This document shows, piece by piece, positions 52,394 through 62,779 of a DNA stretch of 64,000 nt. How positions within the stretch are numbered: the first letter of the stretch is position 1; the number at the start of each line of letters is the position of its first letter. The stretch is from positions 1 through 64,000 of the forward strand of contig PBSL01000030.1 of assembly GCA_002726205.1 (NCBI GenBank), given 5' to 3'. The position numbers were made by a program, and so were the translations under genes. Source of the DNA: Planctomycetaceae bacterium. GTDB lineage: Bacteria > Planctomycetota > Planctomycetia > Planctomycetales > Planctomycetaceae. Below the pieces are notes generated by a model, which was given only the letters and a program-made list of their open reading frames with translations, was not told the DNA's origin and did no database searches.

Positions 52394-53470
52394 ATGTTGT
52401 TTCCTTCGCTACAGGCCAAGCTGAAGCGTTTCGAGGAATTGGAAGCGCAGCTGGTCGACCCCGAGGTGCTTGCCGACGTCGGCCGCATGGTGGCCGTGCA
52501 ACGCGAGTACGGGGGCCTGACGAAGGTCGCGGTCCCGGTACGTGAGTTCAACGAGTTGCAGGAGAACATCGAGACCGCACAGCAGATGCTCAGCGACGAA
52601 TCCGACCCCGAGGCAAAGGCCTATGCCGAGGAGGAACTCGCCGAGCTGCTTGTCGAAAGCGAGACCCAACAGGCAGCGTTGGAAGAACTGCTTGCCACCG
52701 GTGACGCCATCTCGCGTGGCAGCCTGATCATGGAAATCCGGGCCGGTACCGGCGGGGATGAGGCCGCGTTGTTTGTTCGCGACCTGCTGGAGATGTACCA
52801 GCGTCTTGTCGAACGGCGGGGCTGGAAATCAGAGTTGATCGACAGTTCTCCGACCGAACTGGGAGGACTCAAGGATGTCACCCTCTCGATCTCCGGCGAC
52901 GGGGCCTTCCTGCAATTGCAGTTCGAGAGCGGTGGGCACCGGGTACAACGGGTCCCCGAAACCGAAGCCCAGGGGCGGATCCACACGTCGGCGGCCACCG
53001 TCGCCGTGTTGCCCGAGGCCAACGACGTCGAGATCGAGATCAAGGCCGACGACCTGCGAGTCGACACCTTTTTTGCCAGTGGCCCGGGTGGGCAGAAGGT
53101 CAACAAGACGGCCAGTGCCATCCGCATCACGCATATTCCCACCAACACCGTCGTCCAATGCCAGGACGAAAAGAGCCAGCACAAGAACAAGGCAAAAGCG
53201 ATGCGGGTGCTGCGGAGCCGGTTGCTGGAAGCCCGGGAACAGAAACTGCACGCCGAACGAGCTGACAAGCGACGGACGCTGATCGGCTCGGGCGACCGCA
53301 GCCAACGCGTCCGTACCTACAATTTTCCCCAGAATCGCCTGACCGATCACCGCATCGGCCTGTCTCTCTACAAGCTCGACCAGATCATGCAGGGCAGCCT
53401 TGACACTGTCATCGATGCCCTGCTCGAATTCGACCGACAGGAACGCCTGCAGGGTGGCTCGACCTCTTGA
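52394..53470 (+). CDS. prfA: Peptide chain release factor 1
   Basis: RF1 (358 residues) recognises UAA and UAG stops. The GGQ motif is seen in [11 protein letters not shown], which reaches the peptidyl transferase centre. The codon-recognition region of domain 2 is around [23 protein letters not shown] precedes the ATG. The downstream prmC gene starts inside the stop codon (TTGA), and PrmC methylates the GGQ glutamine of release factors, so coupling is meaningful. Confidence 0.97.
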
Positions 53471-54366
53471 CCGCACTTCCCCAACCTGCCGATCAACCCC
53501 CGGACCGCTGGACGGTCCAGGCCGTGCTCGACTGGACCACCGGCCACCTGACTCGCAACGGCAGTTCCACCCCGCGACTCGACACCGAGATCCTGCTGGC
53601 ACAGGCACGCGACTGCCGACGAATCGAGTTGTACACTCACTACGACACCGAGCTGACTGCCGAACAACGCCAGGTGATGCGTGATCTGGTCAAACGCCGC
53701 GCGGCAGCCGAACCGGTCGCCTACCTGGTCGGTTTTCGCGAGTTCTTCGGGCTGAATTTCCAGGTCACACCCCAGACATTGATCCCCCGTCCCGACACCG
53801 AAACTCTCGTCGTCGAAGCACTCGACCTGGCCCGGAACCTGCCGCACCCCCCACAGGTTCTTGACCTGGGTACCGGCAGCGGTTGCATCGTGGTCGCCCT
53901 CGCCACGCAACAACCCTCGGCCCAACTGGTCGCCGTCGATATCTGCAACGGGGCTCTCGAGGTCGCCCGCCGCAATGCCACGGTTCACGATGTCGCTGGC
54001 CGGATCGATTTCCGGGTCGGAGATCTCTTCGAACCGCTCGAGAGCGGACGACGCTTCGACATGATCGTCAGTAATCCCCCGTATGTCGCCCACGCCGAAC
54101 TCGACGAGTTGCCCGCCGATGTCCGGGACCACGAACCACTGCAGGCACTTGATGGTGGTGACGATGGTCTGGACATTGTTCGCCGGATCATCGACGCTGC
54201 CCCCAATCACCTGGCCGCTGACGGGACCCTGCTGTGCGAGATTTCTCCGGAACAGGCCCAGTGCGTCTGCCAACTCGTCGCCGACAACCAAAGTTACCTG
54301 GAGCCGCGAATCGCCAACGACCTGGCCGGCCGACCACGCGTGATCATCGCCCCGTCGGCCGACTGA
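53467..54366 (+). CDS. prmC: Release factor glutamine methyltransferase
   Basis: A 299-residue AdoMet-dependent methyltransferase that methylates the Gln of the GGQ motif in release factors. The N-terminal helical domain binds the factor; the SAM site is [16 protein letters not shown] and the catalytic NPPY lies in [13 protein letters not shown]. The start is TTG overlapping the prfA stop (TTGA). Length and motif order are normal. Confidence 0.96.
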
Positions 54367-54413
54367 ACGACGATGATCCTGTTGCTGCAATCTGAAAACC
54401 GGAGCGTCCACGG

Positions 54414-55820
54414 ATGGACATGTTTGTTGTCGAGGGCGGCCAGCGTCTCAGCGGCCGGGCCAGGATCGGCGGTGCCAAGAACGCCGCGTTGCCGATCATG
54501 GCTGCCTCGCTGGCCAGCGACGGGCCGTTGCAACTGGTCGACGTACCCGATCTCGTCGATGTCAGCACGCTGTCCCGGTTGCTGCAGACACTGGGTGTCG
54601 CCGTCGATCGGTCCGCTGACGGGCTGCTGACGCTGGCCGTCAGCGACACCGGATCCTTCGTCGCCGACTACGAACTGGTTCGCCAGATGCGGGCGAGCAT
54701 CTGCGTGCTCGGGCCGCTGCTGGCACGCCGGGGTCGCGCCTGCGTTTCGCTGCCCGGCGGGTGCAACATCGGACACCGCCCCATCGATCTCCATCTGAAG
54801 GGGCTGGCAGCCCTGGGCGCCGACATTCGCGTCGAACGCGGTTATGTCGTGGCCGAAGCCGACCGGCTGCGCGGCGCTGCGATTGACCTCGGCGGCCCAT
54901 TCGGAAGTACGGTCACCGGCACCTGCAACGTCATGACCGCCGCCACGCTGGCCGAGGGACGTACCACGATCGACACGGCCGCCTGTGAACCCGAGGTCGT
55001 CAACCTCGGTCACTGCCTGAACCGCATGGGAGCCCGGATCCAGGGCCTGGGAACACCGCGACTGGAGATCGACGGCGTCGATCAACTCGGAACCGCTCGC
55101 CATCGCGTGATTCCCGACCGGATCGAGGCAGCCACGCTCCTGATCGCCGCGGCAATCACATCCGGCACGATCGAGATCTCACCGGTCTGCCCGGATCACC
55201 TGGCCGCCGTTTGCGAAACACTTCGCCTGACGGGAGTCCGGATTTCCACTGAACCGCTGCCGGCCGAATCGTCTCCGGGCGATCGCCCTGGAAACGCCGT
55301 CGAGAGTCCACTCCTGGCAACACTGCGAGCCGAGGGCCCCGGCCCCGGGTCCTTGCAACCGACAACCGTCACGGCACTGCCCTACCCCGGCGTCCCCACT
55401 GACGTCCAGGCACAACTGATGGCTCTGCTTTGCCTGGCCGACGGCAACAGCGTCCTGACCGACAGGGTCTTTCCCGACCGATTCCTGCACGCCGCCGAAT
55501 TGTCACGGATGGGGGCAAACATCCACCGCGAGGCGACCGGCGCGGTCATCAACGGTGTCGCTCGACTCAGTGGCGCCAATGTCATGGCCGGCGACCTCCG
55601 CGCCAGCGCCGCGCTGGTCCTGGCCGCACTGGCCGCCGAAGGTTCCTCGACAATTCGCCGCATCTATCATCTCGACCGGGGCTACCAGCGCCTCGACGAC
55701 AAACTCAACCAACTCGGCGCCCGGATCCAGCGGATTTCCGACGAGCCCGGTTCAAGCACCCAGCCACCTCACTGGCTCGCTCGTGAGCAACAGGCCAGTA
55801 TCTCCCGGCACCGGAACTAG
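54414..55820 (+). CDS. murA: UDP-N-acetylglucosamine 1-carboxyvinyltransferase MurA
   Basis: MurA (468 residues) performs the first committed step of peptidoglycan synthesis. The N-terminus shows [15 protein letters not shown], and the catalytic-loop Cys lies in [15 protein letters not shown], the fosfomycin-sensitive Cys form. The later block [17 protein letters not shown] and the C-terminal [13 protein letters not shown] are normal. It is about 45 residues longer than usual because of a polar insertion around residues 285-320 (rich in Pro, Ser, Gly). GGAG is nine bases before the ATG. Its presence argues for peptidoglycan in this organism. Confidence 0.96.
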
Positions 55821-59851: not shown

Positions 59852-60979
59852 CTAGTCCCAGTCCGGCAACGACGGGTAATCCCGTGGCCCCGGCCCCACG
59901 TAGTGCCCCTCGGTCACGCCCGACGATGGAAGACCCGACTGCTCCAGGACATGTGCCGCCCATCCCAGCAGCCGGCTGACGGCGACAAGCGGCAGATGCA
60001 GTTCCGGCTCGATTCCGGCAACCGCCAGCAACCGGATCGCCGACCACTCCCAACGAGGCGACCAACCCCACTGCGCCGCTGCACGTTCCACCTCGGCCGC
60101 GGCCCGGTTGATGGCCCGGCCACGACCCTCGACCGCCAGTCGCTCGGTCCAGATCTGCAGAACCCCCAGCCGTGGATCCATCGGTGCTTCGAGCAGCGAC
60201 ACCAGGCCCGGCAGGCCGGCCTCGGAATTGAGCTGTTCCCGAACCCACCCGTCAACATCATCATCCCAGGGCATGTCTTCCCACAGCGAAATCAGCCGCG
60301 TCGCCAGGTCGCTCCGCTCGGTGGTCGCCTCGACGGACACCGCGGCCAACACGGCCCCGTACAGGTCGGTTCCCGCCGAGATCCCCAACCGGGCCGCCTG
60401 CACCGAACGACTGAAACCGGCATCGACCATGCTGATCAACAGCACCTCGATCGCCTTCTCCAGGTCCGGGGAAGGCATCTGCCCGGTGAGCAACGCCACC
60501 AACTGCGCCGGGTAGCTCCATTCGAGATCGGGCTGGAGCGGGTCGAAGCCCCGTGTCGCCCGGAATCGGGTCGAGACCAGCACCGGAACCTGGGCCAGCA
60601 GGCGAATCGCCCGTGCCCGATCGGCGTCGATCGATCGATCGCCCGGCTGCGGATCGAAGTGCGCCACCGCGCTGATGGCCGTTCGCAACACGTCGCCTGC
60701 CGCAACGTGCAGTGGCAACTCCTCGAGCAGTTCCTGCACCGGGCCGGGCACTGCGAACGATTCGGCCATCACCGCCTGGAAATCCGCCAGGAACAGCTCG
60801 TCGGGCAATTCCCCGTAGAGCAACAGGTAGGCCACCTCGGTGAACGTCGATTCGCGCACGAGGTCACGGACATCGTAACCACGGTAGACCACCGTTTCGG
60901 CATCCCAGTGAGCAATGCCGGTGTCGGTCACCGTGACCCGGCGACCGCTTCGAGCAACTTCCACCTCGCCATGGTCCAT
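59852..60979 (-). CDS. Citrate-synthase-fold protein lacking catalytic residues
   Basis: A 375-residue citrate-synthase-like protein. The fold is clear from the start (GIAHWDAETVVYRGYDVRDL) and from the closing VAVSRLLGWAAHVLEQSGLP. The active-site His of LHGGAN is missing, replaced by TDLYGAV at about residue 203; the GHR-VYK block is absent although the DPR remnant remains in MDPRLGV; and the VDFYS block reads SPRWEWSA, so the catalytic Asp is lost. Citrate synthesis is therefore unlikely. AGGAGAT precedes ATG 60979, while the frame runs to 61087. It may be regulatory or a pseudo-enzyme. Divergent from the esterase gene. Confidence 0.8.
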   Translation of the reverse strand: MDHGEVEVARSGRRVTVTDTGIAHWDAETVVYRGYDVRDLVRESTFTEVAYLLLYGELPDELFLADFQAVMAESFAVPGPVQELLEELPLHVAAGDVLRTAISAVAHFDPQPGDRSIDADRARAIRLLAQVPVLVSTRFRATRGFDPLQPDLEWSYPAQLVALLTGQMPSPDLEKAIEVLLISMVDAGFSRSVQAARLGISAGTDLYGAVLAAVSVEATTERSDLATRLISLWEDMPWDDDVDGWVREQLNSEAGLPGLVSLLEAPMDPRLGVLQIWTERLAVEGRGRAINRAAAEVERAAAQWGWSPRWEWSAIRLLAVAGIEPELHLPLVAVSRLLGWAAHVLEQSGLPSSGVTEGHYVGPGPRDYPSLPDWD

Positions 60980-61207
60980 CACGGCGTCATCTCCTGAATC
61001 TTCTCTCTCCAAGCCACTCCCTGGCTTGGCTGGGCGGCATTGTAACGTCTTGAACGCGTCACGGGCGTCAAAAGACACGAAAATCACAGATCAGGTCGCT
61101 ACGATGAGTCGCTGTCGCTGTTGCGGAAACACCGGGAGATCTCCGCCAACGGCCTTGTCACTTCAGCCATCGCCGGCTCGACCAGGACCGGCCCCACGAG
61201 GAATCCC

Positions 61208-62779
61208 ATGACCCGACCCCTGTTGCGACTGCACCTGCTGGCAGCTGCCTGTGTCCCGCTGCTCGGGCTACTGACCGACTCGACGGCTCGATGCGACTCG
61301 CGGAGTTTCCAGGTCGAATACGTCAAGGAAGCCCACAAGGGCCCGTTCACCGGGCGGGTCTACCTGATCTTCAGCAAAAGGAACAAGGAACCACGCCGGG
61401 GCCCCGGGTGGTTCAACCCCGAGCAATTCGTCGCCCGGGATGTGCAGGACTGGCATCCGGGAGTCCGGCTCGAATTTTCCGGCAAGCTGCCCGGCAGCAC
61501 GACCGGTCCCCGGGGACTGAAGGCGGGTCCCATCCTTGGCTACCCGGGTCCGCTGGCCGCCATGCAACTCGAAGGTTTCCACGCCCAGGCCGTCACCCGC
61601 TTCAATCCCAACGATCGGGAGATCGGACAGGGCGCCGGAAACGGCTTCAGCATGGCGAAGACGCTCGGCAGCGAAACCGCCCAACCGAAGGTCGCATTCA
61701 GTGTTTCGCAACTGGTCCCGGCAAGGCCTTTCAGACAGACCCGCTGGGGCCGGTTGCTGAAGGTGAATTCGGCCCTGTTGACCGCGTTCTACAAGAGGCC
61801 GGTTTTCCTGAGGGGCGGTGTGATCCTGCCGGCAAGTTATTACGAGAAACCCGAGCGACGCTACCCGGTGATCTTTACCGTACCCGGCTTCGGCGGAACA
61901 CATCACTCGGGAAGTGTCGCCGCCCCGGTCGCCGAACGCAACGACGGCGGCGTCGAGTTCCTCCGGATCATTCTCGACCCGAGTTGCCCGCTGGGGCACC
62001 ACGTCTTTGCCGATTCGGCCAACAATGGCCCGGTCGGCCAGGCACTGACAACCGAGTTGATCCCCGCCCTGGACAAGCAGTTCCGCACGATCGCCAGGCC
62101 CAGCGCACGATTCCTGACCGGCCACTCCTCGGGTGGCTGGAGCAGCCTGTGGTTGCAGGTGACCTACCCGAACGTCTTTGCCGGCACCTGGAGCACGGCG
62201 CCGGACCCGGTCGATTTTCGCGACTTCCAGCGAATCAATCTCTATCGCCGTGGCGAGAACATGTACACCGATGGCCAGGGACGTCGTCGCCCGCTGGCGC
62301 GGGTCAATGGCCAGGTCAGGCTCTGGTACAAGGGCTTTGCCGACATGGAGTGGGTGCTGGGCCACGGAGGCCAGTTGCACAGTTTCGAAGCGGTCTTCAG
62401 CCCCAGGGGTTCCAACGGGCGACCGCGACTGGTCTGGGACCGTGCCGACGGCAAGATCGATCTCGAGGCGGCGCGGACGTGGGAAAAATACGACATCCGC
62501 CTGGTACTCCAACGCAACTGGAAGACGCTGGGCCCGAAACTCAAGGGCAAGCTGCACGTCTTCATGGGTGACACCGACACATTCTATCTCGAAGGGGCAA
62601 CGATCCGGCTCAAGGCAGCTCTCGAGAAACTCGGCAGCGATGCCGTCGTCGAGATCCACAAGGGCAGTGATCACTTCAATCTGTTCCGCAACGGGTTGCG
62701 GCAGCGAATCCGCAAGGAGATGACCGCCGCCTTCCTGGCCGCTCACCCCGATCAACGGCAGTCGGCCGGAGGCCGTTGA
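61208..62779 (+). CDS. Exported putative esterase (alpha/beta hydrolase)
   Basis: A 523-residue exported protein with a signal peptide (LLRLHLLAAACVPLLGLL). The C-terminal two thirds contain an alpha/beta hydrolase with nucleophile elbow GHSSGGWSS and a His in the closing KGSDHFNLF. A preceding N-terminal domain (about residues 30-170) has an immunoglobulin-like look. The hydrolase part resembles esterase-D-like proteins that remove acyl groups from sugars. GAGGAAT lies before ATG 61208. It is divergent from the citrate-synthase-like gene, and fabI follows. Confidence 0.82.
   Translation: MTRPLLRLHLLAAACVPLLGLLTDSTARCDSRSFQVEYVKEAHKGPFTGRVYLIFSKRNKEPRRGPGWFNPEQFVARDVQDWHPGVRLEFSGKLPGSTTGPRGLKAGPILGYPGPLAAMQLEGFHAQAVTRFNPNDREIGQGAGNGFSMAKTLGSETAQPKVAFSVSQLVPARPFRQTRWGRLLKVNSALLTAFYKRPVFLRGGVILPASYYEKPERRYPVIFTVPGFGGTHHSGSVAAPVAERNDGGVEFLRIILDPSCPLGHHVFADSANNGPVGQALTTELIPALDKQFRTIARPSARFLTGHSSGGWSSLWLQVTYPNVFAGTWSTAPDPVDFRDFQRINLYRRGENMYTDGQGRRRPLARVNGQVRLWYKGFADMEWVLGHGGQLHSFEAVFSPRGSNGRPRLVWDRADGKIDLEAARTWEKYDIRLVLQRNWKTLGPKLKGKLHVFMGDTDTFYLEGATIRLKAALEKLGSDAVVEIHKGSDHFNLFRNGLRQRIRKEMTAAFLAAHPDQRQSAGGR

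Follow-up and report, generated by a model that had tools for sequence, protein, structure and literature searches.

What does a protein with the fold of citrate synthase do when the residues that carry the chemistry are gone? The question is raised by a minus-strand gene in the window, by which we mean the whole 64,000-nucleotide stretch of Planctomycetaceae DNA that was analysed. The initial annotation had described the gene product as a conserved but catalytically dead citrate synthase fold that might bind acetyl-CoA or oxaloacetate as a sensor or act as a partner of the true synthase. Citrate synthase is the point of entry to the TCA cycle, and there is one known case in which the bacterial cell cycle is regulated in a catalysis-free manner by such a protein.

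Fold and active site of the window protein

The minus-strand open reading frame covers positions 59852 to 61087 and encodes 411 amino acids when counted from the GTG at 61087. The likely start is the GTG at 60982 or the ATG at 60979; the initial annotation took the ATG, one codon after the GTG, and in the alignment the position of the GTG at 60982 is also where the region conserved in relatives begins. The gene and its neighbour are listed as follows:

59852..60982, minus strand: catalytically degenerate citrate synthase gene (PF00285 at 194 bits, predicted model, conserved in three relatives; the open reading frame extends to GTG 61087)
61211..62779, plus strand: putative esterase (PF00756, profile match), divergently transcribed beside the window gene

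The match of the window protein to PF00285 scores 194.2 bits (E = 4.2e-57, profile positions 4–348 of 357), far above the cut-off of 27, and the solved structures closest to the protein in sequence are those of citrate and methylcitrate synthases (1iom, E = 4.3e-37). When the structure was predicted from the window protein together with 29 relatives, the model had a pLDDT of 86.5 and a pTM of 0.87, and it superposed on the Thermus citrate synthase 1ixe with Z = 40.0 and an rmsd of 2.5 across 342 residues; among the matches listed, Z values against solved citrate synthases were 35–41. Both the profile match and the overlay, with Z about 40, thus bear out the citrate synthase fold that had been proposed for this protein. 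Against the best NCBIfam model of a functional synthase, TIGR01800 (cit_synth_II), the window protein scores 178.2 bits as compared to a curated cut-off of 421.3. Among the matches listed, none of the 20 NCBIfam models reaches its own cut-off, and the citryl-CoA lyase models give at most 55.6 bits as compared to a cut-off of 245.

To compare active-site residues, we used the catalytically complete copies in the alignment as the reference and assigned the E. coli numbers H226, H264, H305, R314, D362 and R387 to the aligned columns. We take H226 to be the oxaloacetate-binding histidine, H264 the catalytic histidine of LHGGAN, D362 the catalytic aspartate, and R314 and R387 the arginines that bind carboxylates. 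In the window protein, the histidine helix AEHEFNAS is replaced by VDAGFSRS, LHGGAN by TERSDL, GHRVYK by VSLLEA, PNLDW by PRWEW and the C-terminal RPR by VTE. The codons of interest, placed by alignment except where noted, are:

60419..60421, minus strand: A187, in the column of the oxaloacetate-binding His (H226)
60314..60316, minus strand: R222, in the column of the LHGGAN catalytic His (H264)
60197..60199, minus strand: S261, in the column of the GHR His (H305)
60047..60049, minus strand: E311, in the column of the catalytic Asp (D362), where the g58 relatives have Asp
60170..60172, minus strand: R270, the DPR arginine (R314), still present here and in all 48 degenerate copies
59972..59974, minus strand: R336, the SRLLGW arginine (R387), likewise still present here and in all 48 degenerate copies

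Where a functional citrate synthase has the HGGAN histidine, the GHR histidine and the catalytic aspartate, the window protein has R222, S261 and E311. The reported losses of the LHGGAN histidine and of the GHR block are confirmed, and neither an alignment to PDB sequences nor separate MAFFT family alignments recovered the catalytic residues. The reported loss of the aspartate holds for the window protein, as a change from D to E, but the three closest relatives, all from genus g58, still have it (PGWDW); accordingly, all three catalytic positions are lost in the window protein and two of the three in these relatives. PMC7083601 describes H306 of E. coli GltA, which by our reading is the GHR histidine in the numbering of that paper, as binding oxaloacetate, and it describes Caulobacter CitA with replacements of the matching H303 as no longer complementing a gltA mutant of E. 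coli.

The dead gene and its genomic setting

The same dead gene is present in three of the 170 genomes of the family, all from the one other genus, g58, at 55–59% identity, and gene order is common to the window and these three genomes across some ten genes, within the reach of the contigs. In the closest pair, G167 and G169, the dN/dS of the dead gene is 0.087 at a dS of 0.27, or 0.069 with trimmed codons; in the same pair, dN/dS is 0.188 for the flanking esterase and 0.029 for the enoyl-ACP reductase FabI. Between the window and the g58 copies, dN/dS is 0.235–0.286 at a dS of 1.1 to 1.5, which is near saturation and makes the ratio rough. Since dN/dS is 0.07–0.09 between its two closest relatives, we consider the window gene a maintained pseudoenzyme, in which catalytic loss is combined with purifying selection, the latter seen in the window lineage in one close pair. 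Together with the presence of the dead gene in three relatives, this agrees with its first description as conserved but catalytically dead.

We found an intact citrate synthase elsewhere in the window genome, with a score of 458.8 bits. In 20 genomes, mostly picked because they carry a degenerate copy, a synthase scoring as intact (at least 416 bits) is present in 19, including the window genome and the three g58 genomes; the sole exception is G009, a 64% complete genome. We had considered that every genome has an A-type synthase. This was dropped because g9, g44 and g45 have only another intact type, and since some lineages lack the A-type, the claim is restated as at least one intact synthase. 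The window protein may be a partner of the true synthase, as had been suggested, and the intact synthase of the same genome is a natural candidate for its partner.

The neighbours in the window are homologues of prfA, prmC and aroA, a PQQ-type propeller, the esterase, the enoyl-ACP reductase and an open reading frame that we label Nudix-like from our own reading of it. The homologues of peptide release factor 1, PrmC methylase and EPSP synthase lie in a row near the locus, at window positions 52394–55820 on the plus strand. In other lineages the neighbours vary (porphobilinogen deaminase, MMPL, UvrB, MgtE, PanB) and point to no partner. The pair of esterase and synthase recurs: the synthase copy is live or almost so in g48 and dead in the window clade and g24. 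In the comparison of the esterases, the one from G169 represents that of the window. Because the same divergent esterase lies alongside, these appear to be different states of a single locus. We therefore read the recurring esterase as a sign of positional orthology rather than of function, and we set the neighbours aside as a clue to function, given that only the divergent esterase recurs while other lineages have other neighbours.

Degenerate copies across the family

To place the window gene in its family, we surveyed 101 copies of the paralogue (L256 included) from 100 of the family's 170 genomes and 43 genera, the other genomes being unfetched or without the paralogue. All four of H226, H264, H305 and D362 are present in 37 copies, one is missing in 16 and at least two are missing in 48, which are spread over 17 of the 43 genera. 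The family-based label of citrate synthase is thus incorrect for nearly half of the paralogue copies surveyed. H226 is kept in none of the nine degenerate groups and H305 almost never, and the aspartate has become glutamate in 12 of the 48 degenerate copies, in four groups (window, g9, g24 and g45). R314 and R387, in contrast, are kept in all 48 and belong to the nine columns, out of 48 conserved in live copies, that are kept in every degenerate group (nine groups). Among the degenerate g9 copies, dN/dS is 0.02–0.08 across the six closest pairs.

Some genomes of the family lack the paralogue, such as G162, which is 100% complete and has one synthase gene. In a sample of the phylum (392 genomes), a window-clade profile, applied with a limit of E 1e-66, matched only the window genome and G081. 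Restriction of the paralogue as a whole to the window's lineage or family was rejected, since intact-looking relatives (51–64% identity to L010) occur in other families of the class. Weak PF00285 matches in the g14, g37, g36 and g2 genomes (L247, L250–L252) keep HVGA and GHP motifs and resemble citryl-CoA lyases or short citrate synthases, the label of lyase being a guess from the motifs. Two strongly shortened PF00285 proteins in genus g3 (L253, L254) have no catalytic-loop region at all.

We built a tree from 94 rows out of 162 synthase-like open reading frames, with the motif columns excluded. The citryl-lyase-like L247 and L250–L252, the fragments L253, L254, L206 and L256, 19 of 100 copies with at least 88% identity to a retained row, and most of the A-type and B-type copies (all but 5 and 8, respectively) were left out. 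In this tree of 94 copies, degenerate copies are scattered over several parts of the paralogue's radiation, and the g24 group is placed, with strong support, as sister to copies that are mostly intact. A single old loss was rejected: when all 42 degenerate rows are forced into a single clade, the log-likelihood falls by 174.7 units (p-AU 3e-67), with the test group defined by residues at a time when a quick tree was already known. For the 34 most degenerate rows, the rejection of a single loss is weaker (p 0.009), and this group was picked after the tree and contains long branches. By unordered parsimony there are five changes, four of them forced by starred branches, and on the same tree we count eight losses if loss is irreversible; because the backbone branches are short and the degenerate branches long, the exact number is uncertain. 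Related lineages seem to have lost the synthase chemistry several separate times, and repeated separate losses together with continued selection suggest that the protein now does another job.

The old pocket and the present role

To see how the old pocket has fared, we compared identity in the motif columns with identity elsewhere in the protein. In live copies, identity is 0.97 in the motif columns as compared to 0.64 elsewhere. Between the window and two g58 copies, the values are 0.50 and 0.58, and a fraction of 0.25 of random block sets is that low or lower. The corresponding values for g24 are 0.47 and 0.68, and just 0.012 of the random sets fall that low. The motif columns of g9, g45 and g44 do not differ from the remainder. 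In a clade of 21 copies (g50, g6, g7, g46 and g23), the motif columns reach 0.75 as compared to 0.50, which exceeds a fraction of 0.999 of the random sets, and the residues differ from those of live copies. Thus, the pocket was released in some lineages and seems to have been rebuilt in one. In the window copy, the early helices 46–55 and 94–107 and the late helix 325–347 are near the live consensus (0.80, 0.79 and 0.61), while helix 222–235, which follows the lost HGGAN, falls to 0.14. The 21-copy clade (L228–L245, L248, L249 and L255) has site motifs of its own, CLTE.RPAC, Q.RNDPF, MPFGF and LLP.LRY, and keeps the aspartate; a gene for a PLP-dependent enzyme adjoins three of its loci (g7, g6 and g50).

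These data bear on whether the dead protein might be a ligand sensor, which would use its remaining arginines to bind an acyl-CoA or a carboxylate such as citrate or oxaloacetate and would signal this to a partner. We consider this unlikely. The domain fold is complete and both arginines are present in 48 of 48 degenerate copies, which speaks for a sensor; yet seven other columns, for which we know of no substrate role, are kept just as fully in every degenerate group, so the arginines may be structural. The HGGAN, GHRVYK and RPR loops are replaced, and the pocket is no better conserved than the remainder in the window lineage and less so in g24 (0.012). With the loops for both substrates replaced, and with 0.50 in the pocket as compared to 0.58 elsewhere, the suggestion of an acetyl-CoA or oxaloacetate sensor did not find support; the released pocket of the window lineage argues against it and in favour of a non-catalytic role by protein contact. 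An enzyme whose site was rebuilt for another reaction, perhaps condensation or lysis of an acyl-CoA, is more doubtful still. Rebuilding does seem to occur in this family, given the new residues and the values of 0.75 and 0.50 in the 21-copy clade, but such conservation of the site is absent in the window lineage, which lacks all three histidines and whose only shared polar replacements are R222 and a serine after the helix.

The least probable of these alternatives, by a narrow margin, is a redundant copy that is being lost and is open by chance. The copy in G168 (L006, G168:C11) has one in-frame TAG, which may mean that the gene is going in that lineage or may be an assembly error; the rest is open, and its remaining divergence from the G167/G169 pair gives a dN/dS of 0.15. 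Decay would also fit the 58% identity of the dead gene as compared to 60–86% for most neighbours, alongside 52–56% for the Nudix-like gene, and the absence of the paralogue from some genomes such as G162. It fits poorly with the low dN/dS (0.07–0.09) of the sole close pair, with a frame that is open in three of four species at a dS above 1 between the window and the others, with a codon-position GC pattern that matches the neighbouring genes (0.78 at third codon positions, like theirs), and with a dead state that is stably kept in g9.

We conclude that the window protein, which represents a second, type-II-like citrate synthase of Planctomycetaceae, is probably a pseudoenzyme that has lost its chemistry and is kept for a non-catalytic job of its folded body. 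An intact synthase elsewhere presumably made the activity of the second copy redundant, after which the catalytic residues would have been lost and the folded body retained under selection. The protein would do this job through contacts, either with itself in a homodimer or in a mixed assembly that includes the intact synthase or some other partner, and presumably without binding of the old substrates. More tentatively, and with rather less confidence than in the pseudoenzyme itself, we suggest that a conserved non-catalytic function of the second synthase predates the loss of chemistry, so that the catalytic residues could disappear wherever a different synthase serves metabolism; this would have happened about eight times, with the two arginines always kept and the pocket rebuilt for a new purpose in one clade of 21 copies. 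Repeated natural loss of catalysis with the body under selection would cleanly separate two roles of the protein, and the second is directly testable. In the literature searched, whose reach excluded most subscription papers, we found no description of a naturally dead citrate synthase.

As compared to the PF00285/TIGR01800 family (Thermus 1ixe, M. tuberculosis 3hwk), the window protein has the near-full-length fold, the SRxxGWxxHxxEQ helix and DPR, but the catalytic histidines, the HGGAN and GHR loops and RPR are gone. The other degenerate copies in Planctomycetaceae (g9, g24, g45, g44, g49, g16, g33 and the 21-copy clade) are likewise copies of this paralogue with the two arginines and an intact synthase elsewhere; however, their losses are separate on the tree, their replacement residues are others and the pocket of the 21-copy clade is both new and conserved. 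The closest tested precedent, by analogy, is CitA of Caulobacter crescentus, which controls the transition from G1 to S even when its active-site histidine is replaced (PMC7083601). Like the window protein, CitA is a synthase paralogue in a genome with another active synthase, and its regulatory work is catalysis-free; in contrast, CitA is itself an active enzyme (PMC7083601), whereas the window protein is dead by nature.
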